This document shows positions 6,186 to 41,926 of a stretch of DNA of 43,597 bases, piece after piece; position 1 is the stretch's first letter; every line of letters starts with the position of its first letter. The position numbers and the translations under genes are program-made. The notes under the pieces are model-generated. The model was given only the letters and a program-made list of their open reading frames with translations, was not told where the DNA came from and did no database searches. This DNA is from a virus. The DNA lies in the IMG/VR virus record IMGVR_UViG_3300027733_000004, positions 1 to 43,597 of that record; one strand, 5' to 3'.

Positions 6186-6635
6186 ATGAAAGAAATCAAG
6201 ATGTTTGTCAAGATTGAACCGACAAAGACAACACATCAATCGTCGCTAAGGATACTAAAAGGACGTAACGGACGTATGTTTGTCGGTAAAATGTCATCGT
6301 CTCCCCACAAGAGATGGGTAGCGCAATTTGAAAAATTAATTCAAGCGGCGGCTCCGGCTAATCCGGTAGACGAGCCTGTTCAATGTGAGATGAGATTCTA
6401 CTTTTCTCATCTCAAATCTACGAAGAAGTCTCTCCTGGATTGCACGAGCTACAAGACGACAAGACCAGACCTTGACAATCTTGAGAAGTCCATCTTGGAC
6501 TCCCTGGTTCGTTGCGGATTTATCAAAGACGACTCGCTTGTGTGCGAGAAACATTCCTCAAAGTATCATTCTCCAGACTTTGGCATTTTCATTTCCTTGA
6601 AAAATACTTCAATTCCTCCTTGCCAGAAGTCCTGA
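6186..6635 (+). CDS. RusA-type Holliday junction resolvase
   Basis: 149 aa; endonuclease resolving recombination and replication junctions. The C-terminal half carries RusA acidic residues: RPDLDNLEKSILDSL (Asp95, Asp97, Asp105) and IKDDS (Asp115-116), with the usual spacing, after a basic N-terminal half. Met6 (6201) is an alternative start. It opens the early replication operon, ahead of a RecE-like nuclease, as is common in lambdoid-type recombination modules. Confidence 0.85.
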   Translation: MKEIKMFVKIEPTKTTHQSSLRILKGRNGRMFVGKMSSSPHKRWVAQFEKLIQAAAPANPVDEPVQCEMRFYFSHLKSTKKSLLDCTSYKTTRPDLDNLEKSILDSLVRCGFIKDDSLVCEKHSSKYHSPDFGIFISLKNTSIPPCQKS

Positions 6636-6654: not shown

Positions 6655-7503
6655 ATGAACCAACTAATCAACAACATCAGCGACCAAGAATACGATGGTC
6701 TTGAAGGCATCAATTTCTCCAAATTGAAGCACCTTCTGGACTCTCCATACCACTTCAAGAAGAACATCGAGAACGCCAGCAACGAAGAAAACACTTCGCT
6801 CAAGGTCGGACTCGCTGTCCATTGTCTATCTCTCACCCCTCAGTTGTTTGGCGACAAGTTCACGGTTGCTCCTGTATGTGACCGCCGCACCAAAGAGGGT
6901 AAGATTATCTGGCAGGACTTCCTTGCGAACAACGAAGGAAAGACCGTGCTAACGCAGGAAGAATTCGACCTTGTTGCGAACTGCTACAAAGCCATCGAGT
7001 CCAATCCTTACTTCAAGTGGGCTAAAGAAGGAGACGAAGTGTTCTTCGAAGCCGGCGGTTCCACCGAAATCTTCGGAAGCAAAATCAAGGGTCGTGTCGA
7101 CCTTTTCAACAAATCCAAGAACGTAATCTTGGACATCAAGACGTGTTCTGAAATTCCAAGCGTAGACAACATCCGAAAGGCTATCTACAAGCACAAGTAT
7201 CATATGCAGGCGTATTTCTACAAGTGCATCGTTGACAACTGCTTCGACACCAATGCCGAGTTCGTGTTCTTGTTCATTGACAAGAAACACTTCAACGCGG
7301 TAGGTCTTGCGAAAGTGGGAAGAGAGTTCTTCAATCGTGCCGCAGAGCAACTGAACGAAGCTCTCTGTCGTTACGAGAATTGCAAGAGCAACGATATCTG
7401 GCCCTCTCTCATCAATTCGGAGACTCCGATGATTGTGGATGCCCACCAGACATTCTTTGCGGATGGTCTTGACATTGACCTCGAGGACTCCGAAGATGTG
7501 TGA
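6655..7503 (+). CDS. RecE-like PD-(D/E)XK exonuclease
   Basis: 282 aa. Predicted dsDNA exonuclease producing 3' single strands for the annealing protein encoded at 9005. The core is visible: GLAVHCL (His56), KGRVDLF (Asp149), VILDIKTC (Asp160 and Lys162, the D-x-K of the fold) and MQAYFYK (Gln185 and Tyr187). It matches the RecE C-terminal / DUF3799 group of phage nucleases. The acidic C-terminus is typical. It shares the operon with an ERF protein, the usual exonuclease plus annealase pairing. Confidence 0.83.
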   Translation: MNQLINNISDQEYDGLEGINFSKLKHLLDSPYHFKKNIENASNEENTSLKVGLAVHCLSLTPQLFGDKFTVAPVCDRRTKEGKIIWQDFLANNEGKTVLTQEEFDLVANCYKAIESNPYFKWAKEGDEVFFEAGGSTEIFGSKIKGRVDLFNKSKNVILDIKTCSEIPSVDNIRKAIYKHKYHMQAYFYKCIVDNCFDTNAEFVFLFIDKKHFNAVGLAKVGREFFNRAAEQLNEALCRYENCKSNDIWPSLINSETPMIVDAHQTFFADGLDIDLEDSEDV

Positions 7504-7505
7504 CC

Positions 7506-8168
7506 ATGAACGAAAAATACACGCAGTTTTCTGGTGTCTTCATCCCCAGAGAGGTCTTGCTTGACCAAGAAGTTCCGGCCAACGCAAAACTAATCTTCGC
7601 AATCGTGCAGTCCCTTGACAATGAAAAGGGCTGTTATGCTAGCAATGAGTATCTCGGAGGTATGCTCGGCTTGTCCGAGTCTGCCGTCCGTGCTTCTTTG
7701 CACATCCTTGAGCATCGTGGCTACATCACCAGAACCATCGAAGACGGCATCAAACGCACATTGAAGACCTGTGTTACGCAGTCTTTTCGTGCCCAACCCC
7801 GCCAGATTTCTGAAGCCACCCCGCCAGAAATCGAGCAGCCCCCCCGCCAGAAATCTGGCACATATGTTAGTAGAAAGAATAAAGTAGTAGATAATAACAC
7901 CCTGCTACTTCCCCCACTCCCTCATTCGGAGGAATTCGCAAAGGTCTGGGACGAATGGGTTATCTTCCGCAAGGAGATAAAAAAGCCGTTGACACCGACC
8001 TCAATCCTTGAACAATTGAAATTCCTAACAGAACAAACAGAACATGACGCAATTACATCAATCAAAAACTCTATTCGAAGTGGGTGGGTTGGGCTTTTCC
8101 CTGTCAAGCAGTCAAACTCCAAGTTCGCCAACAAACTCCTCACCAGCAAAGACCATGAAGCCTTCTAA
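7506..8168 (+). CDS. Winged-helix replication initiator (origin-binding protein)
   Basis: 220 aa. The N-terminal 100 residues look like a MarR/DnaD-type winged helix (CYASNEYLGGMLGLSESAV then the helix ASLHILEHRGYI). A Pro, Gln and Arg rich linker (about 98-145) separates it from a C-terminal helical domain (FAKVWDEWVIFRKEIKKPL through SIRSGWVGLFP) typical of phage replisome organisers. The linker DNA carries iterons and an AT-rich tract, as in lambda O. The next gene is a helicase loader, fitting the O/P-type arrangement. The start could also be GTG at 7500, overlapping the previous stop. Role inferred from domains and context. Confidence 0.75.
   Translation: MNEKYTQFSGVFIPREVLLDQEVPANAKLIFAIVQSLDNEKGCYASNEYLGGMLGLSESAVRASLHILEHRGYITRTIEDGIKRTLKTCVTQSFRAQPRQISEATPPEIEQPPRQKSGTYVSRKNKVVDNNTLLLPPLPHSEEFAKVWDEWVIFRKEIKKPLTPTSILEQLKFLTEQTEHDAITSIKNSIRSGWVGLFPVKQSNSKFANKLLTSKDHEAF
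7801..7905 (+). other. Putative replication origin inside the initiator gene
   Basis: Three iterons of CCCCGCCAGA followed by (A/T)(A/T)TC: cores at 7801-7812, 7823-7832 and 7846-7859, spaced 22 and 23 bp, about two helical turns. The third is a near-palindrome, CCAGA-AA-TCTGG. An AT-rich stretch follows (7861-7898), a plausible unwinding element. The repeats lie in different reading frames of the host gene (PRQIS, PPEIE and PRQKS), so the constraint is on DNA rather than protein. A partial second copy is at 41115-41210. Confidence 0.72.
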
Positions 8169-8829
8169 CTGTGATTGCGGTGGACAGCGTGTTCCTCTCA
8201 CGCTCAATGGAAACATCTCTTGGCCCGGTTTCTTCTGTCCTTCCTGTGAGAGCAAATACACTCTTAACGGCGACCCGAAGCGTGGAGCAGAGTGGGCTTA
8301 CGAGCCTATCGGTATTCCTGTCGAATACACCAAGACTGTAGTGGATAAAATCCCATGCAACAACATGAAGAAAGTTGCAATGGAGTGGGAGGGCTGGAAG
8401 AACGGTCGTTCCATCCTGTTGCACGGAACTACCCGACTCGGCAAGACTCGAGCCGCTTGGGAGATTACTCGTCGTCATTGGAAGTCGTGCTTCAAGAAGC
8501 AATTGTTCTTCACAATGCGTGGCTTCGAGCGTATGATTGACGAAGGTTTCCAGCGTCATGACCATAGCAAGCGTCTTGATGAAATCATCAAGTGTCCGTT
8601 CCTTTACATCGACGACTTTGGCAAGGAAAAGATGACCCAACGTATCGCTTGCGACCTGTTCGCAGTAGTCGATGAACGCACCATCAACCATCGTCCGACA
8701 GTCATCACGACCAACTTTACGTCGTCCGGTCTTCTTGGTCGTTTCGAAGACCAAGAACTCGGTGCCGCAATGATTGGTCGCTTCCGTGACTACTTTGACA
8801 TCGTTGGTGCGAAGGAGGTTCAGTCGTGA
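8155..8829 (+). CDS. DnaC/IstB-like AAA+ helicase loader with zinc ribbon
   Basis: 224 aa; predicted ATPase loading the host replicative helicase. The N-terminus has a four-cysteine knuckle (Cys6, Cys8, Cys28, Cys31). Walker A is GTTRLGKT (91-98), Walker B FLYIDD (149-154), sensor 1 TTNFT (Asn187), and an arginine-finger-like IGRFRDY near 208-213. The start at 8155 is chosen since it begins just before the zinc knuckle and overlaps the initiator by only 14 bases; the frame extends up to 8044, but that would add 37 low-complexity residues. No phage helicase or polymerase is present, so it presumably recruits the host replisome. Confidence 0.82.
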   Translation: MKPSNCDCGGQRVPLTLNGNISWPGFFCPSCESKYTLNGDPKRGAEWAYEPIGIPVEYTKTVVDKIPCNNMKKVAMEWEGWKNGRSILLHGTTRLGKTRAAWEITRRHWKSCFKKQLFFTMRGFERMIDEGFQRHDHSKRLDEIIKCPFLYIDDFGKEKMTQRIACDLFAVVDERTINHRPTVITTNFTSSGLLGRFEDQELGAAMIGRFRDYFDIVGAKEVQS

Positions 8830-9008
8830 AACGTCATTACAATACCAAAGGACGAACTCCTAGATTTGACGACCCCGTTAACCAGCACGGCTCAACAATC
8901 TGCAGAAAAAAATCTGCAGAATTCGCAAAAAAGATGCTTGCCAAAGACGTCGAAAGATGGAAACTACTTTTCTCACGAAACAAATACCAGAAACCACTTG
9001 ACCTATGA
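8826..9008 (+). CDS. Hypothetical basic protein, 60 aa
   Basis: Not recognised. GTG start at 8826 overlapping the helicase-loader stop (GTGA), and its own stop overlaps the ATG of the ERF gene (ATGA), so it is held between two translationally coupled genes. Highly basic, with a CRKKSAEFAKKML helix. Probably nucleic-acid or replisome associated, on context only. Confidence 0.65.
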   Translation: MKRHYNTKGRTPRFDDPVNQHGSTICRKKSAEFAKKMLAKDVERWKLLFSRNKYQKPLDL

Positions 9009-9805
9009 GCCAATACCGACCATACAAGAAATACACTTGGACCGAATTCTCTGATAACTTTATGCCCGACACTACCATGACCAACAACATCGAATACCGT
9101 GCCCAACTTAACGCTGCCCTTGTCGCTGCTATCGCAGAGACGAAGGACGTTCATGCTGACAGCACTAATCCGTTCCACAAGAACAAGTATGCCTCCCTTG
9201 GTGCACACCTTGAGGCTATCAAGCCCATCTTCCAGAAGCACGGCTTGGCTATCCTTCAGTTCCCGACCTCTTGTGATAAGAGCATCGGCGTGAACACCAT
9301 CGTGGTGCATACCTCTGGTGCTTCCATCGAGGAAAGCATCTGCATCCCTGTCGGTGACAGCGTGAAGGGACAGGAGGCTGGTGCTATCATTTCCTATCTC
9401 CGCCGCTATGCTCTCGCCTCCGTTGCCGGTGTCGCTACCGAAGATGATGATGCCGAAATCGACCGCATCGCTCGCACTCCGTCTGCCCCAGCAGTCAAGT
9501 CTTCGAGCGTCCAGACGACCAAGTTCATCCCCAACCCTAACGCCTCTTCTGACATTGCAGGCGAAGTCAATTTCGACCTTCCTGTTCCGTTCGGTAAGGC
9601 AAAGGGAACGAGTCTGAACAATCTTCCTCTCTCCGACCTTGACTATTGGGCTAACAAGTGGGAGCCGAAGCCGTGGGAAAAGACGGGCAAGGTAGGTGCT
9701 AAAGACCTATCGTTAAAGGCCTCTGCACAGGCTCTGTGGTCGATTAAGAACTCCGAGCAGGGTCAACCCTCGGACGACAGCGAAGGGGACGCTATTCCCT
9801 TCTAA
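9005..9805 (+). CDS. ERF-family single-strand annealing protein
   Basis: 266 aa recombinase that anneals complementary single strands, partner of the RecE-like nuclease. The core shows the ERF signature: NPFHKNKYASLGAHLEAIKP (near 54-75) and AGAIISYLRRYALASVAGV then EDDDAE (near 126-150). The C-terminal part is a linker plus a second small region (PFGKAKGTSLNNLP). The extreme C-terminus is DDSEGDAIPF, like the acidic tip of bacterial SSB (DDDIPF type), suggesting it can engage host SSB-binding proteins. Start by ATGA overlap; an internal Met20 is possible. It is followed directly by two tRNA genes. Confidence 0.85.
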   Translation: MSQYRPYKKYTWTEFSDNFMPDTTMTNNIEYRAQLNAALVAAIAETKDVHADSTNPFHKNKYASLGAHLEAIKPIFQKHGLAILQFPTSCDKSIGVNTIVVHTSGASIEESICIPVGDSVKGQEAGAIISYLRRYALASVAGVATEDDDAEIDRIARTPSAPAVKSSSVQTTKFIPNPNASSDIAGEVNFDLPVPFGKAKGTSLNNLPLSDLDYWANKWEPKPWEKTGKVGAKDLSLKASAQALWSIKNSEQGQPSDDSEGDAIPF

Positions 9806-40498: not shown

Positions 40499-41029
40499 TT
40501 AAGAAATAAAAACTCTTCCGTTAGAAGCAACTCGAAAATCACCGACCCATCTCCCACCCCTATGTCTGGCATTGATAATTGAATTAACTCTCAATTGCGA
40601 GGAGTCCCTTACAGCCACATTGACAGTCTCCCCTCTTATCTCGCATCTTACAAGACGCTTGTTGGGATACTTGCTTCTAACGATGGCAGGAACAGTCCCC
40701 GTGGGTGCGGCTGGAGTCGAACCAGCATCTTGACCGTTATGAGCAGTAGGTTCTGACCCTTGAACTACGCACCCGGAAATGGTGGAGGCTGGGGGAGTCG
40801 AACCCCCATTATCCGATTGCAGGTCGGGTGTCCTGCCATTGGAAGAAGCCCCCGTAATGACAACAAGCTTATTCAAGCCCTTCTCTGTCCATAGAATTAC
40901 AAACGTCCCGTTATTCTTGTCCTTCTTGACATAATCTTCGCCAATCTCAAATACACCAGACTTTCTCAACTCGATAAGTTTGGCTTTATTGATATTGAAG
41001 TTTTCTGCAATAAACTTCTCTTTATACAT
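40499..41029 (-). CDS. ORF of 176 aa running through two tRNA genes
   Basis: The N-terminal 55 residues (MYKEKFIAENFNINKAKLIE ... FVILWTEKGLNKL) look like a small DNA-binding domain. Residues about 59-109 are the translation of the tRNA-Ala and tRNA-Met genes on the same strand (Ser, Gly, Thr, Pro rich). The C-terminal 60 (YPNKRLVRCEIRGETVNVAV, then RHRGGRWVGDFRVASNGRVF) looks like a small beta domain. Either one protein whose linker is tRNA sequence, or two gene remnants bridged by an open frame; no internal ATG, GTG or TTG start for the C-terminal part is evident before the domain. Start at 41029; the frame extends upstream to 41155 across iterons. Confidence 0.5.
   Translation of the reverse strand: MYKEKFIAENFNINKAKLIELRKSGVFEIGEDYVKKDKNNGTFVILWTEKGLNKLVVITGASSNGRTPDLQSDNGGSTPPASTISGCVVQGSEPTAHNGQDAGSTPAAPTGTVPAIVRSKYPNKRLVRCEIRGETVNVAVRDSSQLRVNSIINARHRGGRWVGDFRVASNGRVFIS
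40702..40774 (-). tRNA. tRNA with CAT anticodon (Met, or Ile2)
   Basis: 73 nt: acceptor GGGTGCG/CGCACCC, D stem GTTC/GAAC, anticodon stem TACTG/CGGTC (one mismatch, one T-G) with loop CTCATAA, T stem GCTGG/CCAGC, discriminator A. A paired first position argues against an initiator. Elongator Met cannot be told from lysidine-modified Ile. CCA is not encoded. Confidence 0.88.
40780..40853 (-). tRNA. tRNA, most likely Ala (anticodon TGC), atypical loop
   Basis: Acceptor GGGGGCT/AGCCTCC with a G3-T70 wobble pair and discriminator A73, both alanine identity elements; encoded CCA (40780-40782). D stem TCC/GGA (3 bp), anticodon stem CCCGA/TCGGA with loop CCTGCAA, T stem GGGGG/CCCCC. Centred reading gives TGC but with C at position 33 instead of the near-universal T. 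A Cys reading (GCA with T33) breaks the stem. Confidence 0.75.
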
Positions 41030-41114: not shown

Positions 41115-41210
41115 GCCAGATTTCTGAGGGGGGGGGCGCCAGATTTCTGGCACATATAGTAATAGAAGATATAAATAGAAGATAATAAAAGGAGGTCAGC
41201 AGATTTCTAG
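41115..41210. repeat. Second iteron cassette, similar to the intragenic origin
   Basis: GCCAGATTTCTG at 41115-41126 and GCCAGATTTCTGGC at 41138-41151 (23 bp apart, the same spacing as inside the initiator gene), plus a degenerate GCAGATTTCTAGC at 41199-41211. The 51 bases from 41138 align with 7846-7897, including exact blocks TCTGGCACATAT and GATAATAA. G-runs up to nine long replace the C-runs of the other copy. Candidate origin or initiator-binding operator ahead of the late operon. Confidence 0.72.
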
Positions 41211-41218
41211 CACCTCTA

Positions 41219-41411
41219 TTGACATGATTGTTTGTAAACTATTTGAACGTTAAGTTTACAAAGATGACATTGACAGAGGTCTTTTGTAAAAAATTATGGG
41301 TGTTGGAATCAATCAGGCCTGCAATCTTTTACAAATGTAAAAGACCCCCTCCCCCCCTATTTTTTACACTTATTTTACGTTTTTTTTCGTTAAAAAGTTG
41401 TAAAAAACGCT
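41219..41411 (+). promoter_or_regulatory. TTGACA boxes and TTTACA/TGTAAA operator array
   Basis: TTGACA at 41219-41224 and 41270-41275, each followed 6-7 bases later by TTTGTAAA. Inverted repeats: TTTGTAAACT/AGTTTACAAA (41231-41262), TCTTTTACA/TGTAAAAGA (41325-41344), and TTTTTTACA/TGTAAAAAA across 41360-41407. C-runs at 41345-41357. Reads as a control region for the rightward operon and its leader. -10 elements are not convincing. Confidence 0.6.
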
Positions 41412-41464: not shown

Positions 41465-41926
41465 ATAGGGTTAATCACCCTATGCTCTTTGAAAGTTTAA
41501 GCAGGCAAGGCAAACGGGACACCCTACGGGGGCGTCTTATCTGTCAGATGCAAGCGGGGGCAAACCCTCCAAAGTAACGGACAATCCGAAGGGGTTGCGG
41601 ACGGAAACTGTTAGCACGATACGCTAAACCATAGGCGTAGGCGTGATAGCGTGAGAAAATAGCGTAGGGACACTTACGCCGAAGTATCAATACCGGGCAA
41701 TCTTTGTAAGTGCGTAATACTACTGCCATTGTAGGTCGGGCAGGGACGCAGAGCCGTGAAACATCTAGACAGGTCAAATCCGTGCAGTCGTGCAAGCGTG
41801 TTAGTTTCCTTTAACTTTCCCATTAGGCGGGGTGCGTATTGATACGCTAGCGTCTAGGCTATTGCTGGTAGCATAAACCAGCACAGCAGGGGGCTGAGTA
41901 AGCCCTTGTTGGTTAGAAAGGAAACT
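41465..41926 (+). ncRNA. Candidate large structured RNA or structured 5' leader, about 460 nt
   Basis: No protein-coding frame, but dense complementary segments: ATAGGGT/ACCCTAT (41465-41483), GCGTCT/AGATGC (41532-41551), CAATCC-GAAG-GGGTTG (41582-41597), TACGCTA/TAGGCGTA with one bulge (41620-41639), CACTTAC/GTAAGTG (41671-41712), CTGCC/GGCAG (41723-41743), GCGTA-TTGA-TACGC (41834-41847), GCTGGT/ACCAGC (41864-41882) and GGGCT/AGCCC (41891-41905). A 10-bp stem AGTTTCCTTT/AAAGGAAACT (41803-41812 with 41917-41926) closes a multi-branch junction and includes the ribosome site of the next gene. No match to RNase P, tmRNA, group I intron or 6S core motifs that I could find. Size, phage setting and tRNAs nearby invite comparison with ROOL and GOLLD RNAs. 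Confidence 0.6.

Follow-up and report, generated by a model that had tools for sequence, protein, structure and literature searches.

Iterons inside a phage initiator gene and their twin in distant non-coding DNA: a probable SPP1-type pair of replication sites

Three copies of a short repeat lie inside the replication initiator gene of a viral contig, within the part that encodes a protein linker, and the question is whether they follow from the encoded peptide or serve replication as DNA. We analysed the whole contig of 43,597 bp, called here the window; because its ends carry a 127-bp repeat, the genome is taken to be a circle of 43,470 bp. Our preferred reading, to which we give a probability of about 0.82 from sequence comparison, is that the repeats are the iterons of an origin within the initiator gene and that the same protein reads a second, non-coding module, as in a two-site system of the SPP1 type. 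The genes of this part of the genome are:

6186-6635, plus strand: RusA-like Holliday junction resolvase gene (RusA, E = 5.9e-16)
6655-7503, plus strand: PD-(D/E)XK exonuclease gene, exonuclease VIII-like (DUF3799, E = 8.5e-31; phrog_412, E = 1.3e-44)
7506-8168, plus strand: initiator gene, 220 aa (HTH_36, E = 3.9e-7; phrog_678 'replication initiation O-like', E = 6.3e-17; AlphaFold model)
8155-8829, plus strand: DnaC-like helicase loader gene (IstB_IS21, E = 1.7e-9; phrog_50 DnaC-like, E = 9.5e-21), its start, read from the sequence, overlapping the end of the initiator gene
9005-9805, plus strand: Erf-like single-strand annealing protein gene (ERF, E = 1.2e-18; phrog_2324, E = 1.6e-29)

The AlphaFold model of the initiator consists of a winged helix (residues 10-90) with its recognition helix at 58-70, a linker (92-134) and a weaker helical C-terminal part; the linker is modelled with low confidence and is presumably disordered. 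The phrog_678 and HTH_36 matches and the winged-helix model place the protein in the O-like winged-helix group, as expected of a lambda-type origin. The Pfam family Phage_rep_O was not reached by the window initiator (it was weakly matched in locus L042), solved structures searched by sequence gave no real match, and Foldseek returned generic winged helices only, the weak ones including PDB 4pt7 and 4pql. These two entries we take to belong with the RepA_N plasmids of Firmicutes (pSK41/pTZ2162 type), in which a winged-helix initiator has iterons inside the rep coding sequence. Unlike the window, these are plasmids with a single site, and no sequence similarity to them was found.

A preliminary description had reported three repeats in the initiator linker with spacings of 22 and 23 bp. 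All three are there, as copies of CCCCGCCAGA at 7797, 7819 and 7842, and the repeated unit proves longer than the ten bases described, being a 14-bp imperfect palindrome, GCCAGAWWTCTGGC, followed by an A+T-rich stretch:

7801-7814, plus strand: in-gene iteron 1, GCCAGATTTCTGAA
7823-7836, plus strand: in-gene iteron 2, GCCAGAAATCGAGC
7846-7859, plus strand: in-gene iteron 3, GCCAGAAATCTGGC, with perfect half-sites
7860-7900, plus strand: in-gene A+T-rich tail (76%), holding TAG/TAA triplets

The three dyad-symmetric copies all fall inside the stretch encoding residues 92-134, and their spacing corresponds to about two helical turns. The AT-rich stretch already described after the repeats measures 41 bp and lies directly beside the iterons, so that the interval first proposed, 7801-7905, fits palindromes plus tail. 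This tail, the presumed unwinding element, is the richest 41-bp A+T stretch of the gene and is equalled by 0.8% of such windows in the genome.

Since the region encodes a low-complexity, presumably disordered linker, the repeats could be a by-product of a repetitive proline-rich peptide, with no function as DNA. The reading frames speak against this: as had been pointed out, the first two copies encode different residues (PRQIS and PPEIE), being read in two frames, and copies 1 and 3 share one. When the codons of the initiator gene were shuffled synonymously, only 2 of 20,000 shuffles placed some 10-mer three times within 120 bp. Elsewhere in the genome such a triplet occurs solely at a simple ATCATTC array; this array, made up of ATCATTC/TCAATCATTC repeats, occupies positions 110-270, near the join of the record.

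Synonymous sites were compared with those of a relative whose initiator is 82% identical (L005/L006). No synonymous change was found in the 27 informative codons at the iterons and tail, whereas 55 of 148 had changed elsewhere in the gene (hypergeometric P = 1.3e-5), a result that counts as one independent comparison because L005 and L006 are identical over the initiator gene. The peptide linker of the relative has drifted (77% identity over codons 92-121), and the amino acids encoded by iterons and tail are no better conserved than elsewhere in the initiator. The earlier proposal that the repeat is kept at the level of DNA is thereby borne out. The DNA itself thus appears to be under selection, and a lambda-style replication origin within the initiator gene is well supported by these comparisons. 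With the same word occurring again in non-coding DNA (below), a mere peptide by-product is contradicted and is hardly credible. The linker region of eight initiator genes from phages in a public collection, cultured and uncultured, likewise holds iterons; the word is particular to each, and the spacings are about 19-29 bp. GC, AT and purine skew were also considered for origin mapping and rejected, because third-position skew tracks the gene strand; GC skew is uninformative and lends the origin no support.

A scan of the genome with the palindrome detected one further cluster, at 41115-41211 in non-coding DNA, which the preliminary description had missed:

41115-41128, plus strand: remote iteron 1, GCCAGATTTCTGAG
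41138-41151, plus strand: remote iteron 2, GCCAGATTTCTGGC
41152-41192, plus strand: remote A+T-rich tail (80%), aligning with the in-gene tail
41198-41211, plus strand: remote iteron 3, degenerate, AGCAGATTTCTAGC, lying beyond the tail and kept in the relative L011

The two modules have the same orientation and lie about 10.2 kb apart on the circle. Remote iteron 2 and its tail align with in-gene iteron 3 and its tail over 53 columns at about 79% identity, with a score of 63 against a maximum of 30 in 2,000 dinucleotide shuffles. The remote site shares 14 repeated 8-mers, versus 3 for the next-best position of the genome. In the comparison with L011, no other part of the non-coding region is as well conserved (79% over 188 bp), and the non-coding DNA around this core is otherwise unalignable.

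The tails at 7860-7900 and 41152-41192 both hold TAG/TAA triplets with a three-base periodicity reminiscent of DnaA-trios; the periodicity is significant in these two tails (P < 0.0005 and P = 0.003, respectively) and not significant in most other lineages. Just past the remote site, a dyad, TTTGTAAACT...AGTTTACAAA, at 41229-41263 is partly kept in L011 and may belong to the site. Beside it lies an apparently non-coding stretch of about 440 bp (41480-41920) that is strongly foldable, with a minimum free energy of -143 kcal/mol as a raw value without shuffle comparison; this stretch could not be aligned with L011, and the non-coding region beside the remote site gave no Rfam match. On the other flank, the tRNAs Met-CAT and Ala-TGC (40701-40774 and 40780-40853) lie in frame and on the same strand inside an open reading frame at 40499-41029, minus strand, which stays open through both. 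Its L011 homologue (46% identity, 165 aa) shows no tRNA at that position but an ordinary linker.

The pair is found beyond this genome. Viral contigs scanned for the iteron plus the start of the tail yielded six contigs, with iteron clusters in all of them; the iteron pattern in a collection of genome contigs (257 Gb) gave three matches, lone sites without a cluster and about as many as expected by chance. One of the six, G005, is a phage that has a circular genome of 62 kb and an initiator 29-35% identical to that of the window, and its iteron is also GCCAGAWWTCTGGC. Its iterons occur within the initiator gene and, about 6 kb off on the circle, next to a Cpn10-like gene in non-coding DNA; the Cpn10 match was established on the L042 orthologue of the G005 gene. 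In contrast to the window, the two modules of the G005 group have opposite orientations. The Cpn10 (GroES)-like gene (3111-3752 in L034, with orthologues in L049-L076) is a fixed neighbour of the remote site in this group.

A search with the Cpn10-like gene gave 28 loci, in which the remote site stays at the same place while its word changes. Closer relatives of the G005 initiator use quite different words, each of which is found at both places, within the initiator gene and next to the Cpn10-like one. In some twenty further viral contigs, the site within the initiator gene has a remote twin at a distance of 7-10 kb, likewise adjoining a Cpn10-like gene. An in-gene and a remote site, each with repeats and an A+T-rich element, thus occur together in the window and recur in G005 and others. 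Nine phage records related by initiator or terminase showed no second cluster at the sensitivity used (at most a scan for repeated 9-mers in the case of MT835558 and of the first 5.7 kb of Cruim01), and the twin is therefore a feature of a lineage rather than part of every such origin. In-gene iterons are present in eight of the nine; the ninth, C75C1, which is related by terminase, was set aside, its initiator being short and without iterons.

To compare the two sites of each phage, 8-base words were matched between the in-gene and the remote site, excluding G/C runs and words consisting almost only of A+T, in those loci from the Cpn10-like search that had an initiator in reach. For 20 loci, the sum over own pairs was 401 against a permutation maximum of 240. 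For 20 dereplicated phages, the window and G005 included, it was 410, whereas 50,000 permutations averaged 70 and never exceeded 221; permutation does not take out shared ancestry, which dereplication lessens without removing it. A phage's own remote site was the best match in 15 of the 20; for most of the other five, the best match came from a phage whose word was identical or nearly so. Words differ from phage to phage, for instance GGTGTAGAAACACC in L061 and TAGTGAGAACTCACTA in L074. One real exception is L057, whose initiator and in-gene word resemble those of L053 and whose remote site carries a hybrid, L075-like word that matches only half; it is possibly a change of specificity caught midway or else a chimeric contig. 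Across the 20 phages, the words of the two sites agree. With the word common within a phage and differing among phages, both sites and the protein appear to change together.

L061 and L062 contain identical stretches of up to 32 bp between their own two sites, which suggests copying from one to the other. Such stretches also suit the view that the remote site is a recent, functionless duplication of the in-gene segment, a recombination scar. That view is very unlikely: the remote site persists beside the Cpn10-like gene in all 28 loci while the word changes, the window sites share no run longer than 14 bp and yet align over 53 columns, and L011 has conserved the site but not its surroundings.

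The pairing extends to phages with another initiator. L058, L064 and L066 have an initiator of the Lin1244_N family (PF14297; the family was tested on L064), and their site beside the Cpn10-like gene carries their own initiator's in-gene repeats and a purine-rich tail. In L073, the initiator protein used as a query matches even the non-coding remote site. By eye, the window and G005, which have GCCAGAWWTCTGGC in common, also share a recognition helix of the form S-x-S-A-[VI]-R-[AS], and five phages with GGTGT...ACACC share MKL[DE]GVRTC. On balance we favour a widespread design in which an origin in the linker and a remote non-coding twin stay in step, so that after a change or exchange of initiator the word of the remote site would follow, by copying, selection or both.

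A different role for the remote cluster would leave the in-gene module as the only origin, the cluster being an operator at which the initiator regulates how neighbouring late or structural genes are transcribed. Its position would suit this, as it lies about 80 bp upstream of a gene on the minus strand that heads the structural block, and in the G005 group between the Cpn10-like gene and the next gene, ahead of the structural genes. However, the remote copy retains the A+T tail besides the iterons, which an operator does not need; the type of tail changes with the initiator family, and the orientation relative to the flanking genes is not constant. We consider an operator unlikely. Nor is it probable that the remote site is a control element that titrates the initiator or loops to the in-gene site, acting as neither origin nor operator, since the A+T tail is not expected at a pure titration site. 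This role agrees with the same iterons lying 6-10 kb apart and with palindromes, which suit a site-bridging protein, and no result obtained here contradicts it. Plasmid iteron clusters and the crr of P4 are presumably parallels for titration or looping; nothing usable on P4 crr was found in the open-access literature.

In the two-site reading that we prefer, the closest known system is SPP1. The preliminary description had drawn the parallel with lambda, and an in-gene origin, an O-like initiator, iterons in the linker and an A+T region do agree; with the twin at 41115-41211, SPP1, which has oriL in gene 38 and a remote oriR, is the closer parallel. As in SPP1 (G38P, G39P, G40P; PMC3485210, PMC6316719), one origin would lie in the initiator gene and another among the late genes or next to them, outside coding sequence, with repeats and an A+T-rich unwinding element (predicted in the window) at both sites, and genes for a loader, annealase, exonuclease and resolvase nearby. 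The sites are 12-13 kb apart in SPP1 and 10.2 kb apart here. This likeness is one of published layout, and for the window both initiator binding and the function of the remote site are predictions.

Lambda ori in gene O, bound by O dimers (PMC5043065), shares with the window an O-type winged-helix initiator whose linker region holds dyad-symmetric iterons, an adjacent A+T-rich stretch of about 40 bp and a loader gene downstream. It differs in having four 19-bp iterons, against three 14-bp palindromes at 22-23 bp, and P in place of a DnaC/IstB-like loader, and in being without a remote second module. P1 oriL, inside repL, is a lytic origin within an initiator gene that needs an A+T-rich region (PMC9948254); it resembles the window in these two respects, in a layout that is otherwise unrelated.

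In lambda and SPP1, the initiator binds at iterons, an A+T-rich region opens and a loader delivers the helicase (PMC5043065, PMC6316719). By the same scheme, the palindromes, with about two helical turns from one to the next, would most likely be occupied by initiator dimers along a single face of the DNA. The dimers would then melt the adjacent A+T-rich tail, and the DnaC-like loader from the neighbouring gene would be recruited to place the replicative helicase. The module at 41115-41211 would be read by the same initiator. By analogy with SPP1 oriR, it may stall a fork and aid the switch to concatemer synthesis, or act as a late origin; the view of oriR as a fork block or late site is a proposal in SPP1 as well (PMC3485210; also PMC5615212). 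In the likeliest division of labour, the first round would start within the initiator gene, and the remote site would either stall forks or initiate late in a recombination-dependent manner. The Erf annealase, RusA resolvase, exonuclease and loader encoded near the initiator are the kinds of function that SPP1 uses, and the first three would be compatible with a fork-stalling or concatemer step. Any single fork-blocking geometry is weakened, because the modules are co-oriented in the window and opposed in the G005 group.

In the open-access literature, a two-site origin of this kind is known mainly from SPP1, where the role of the second site, as a block that triggers the switch to concatemers, is still a proposal. 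Here, as a difference from SPP1, the layout occurs in many phages, whose iteron words are of many kinds and whose initiators come from two families or more. These loci form a comparative set for three questions: how iterons are matched to the initiator residues that read them, whether forks start or stall at the remote site, and by what route the protein, the in-gene site and the remote site change specificity together. If the proposed design is true, they would amount to a large natural collection in which each recognition helix comes with its own in-gene and remote origin.
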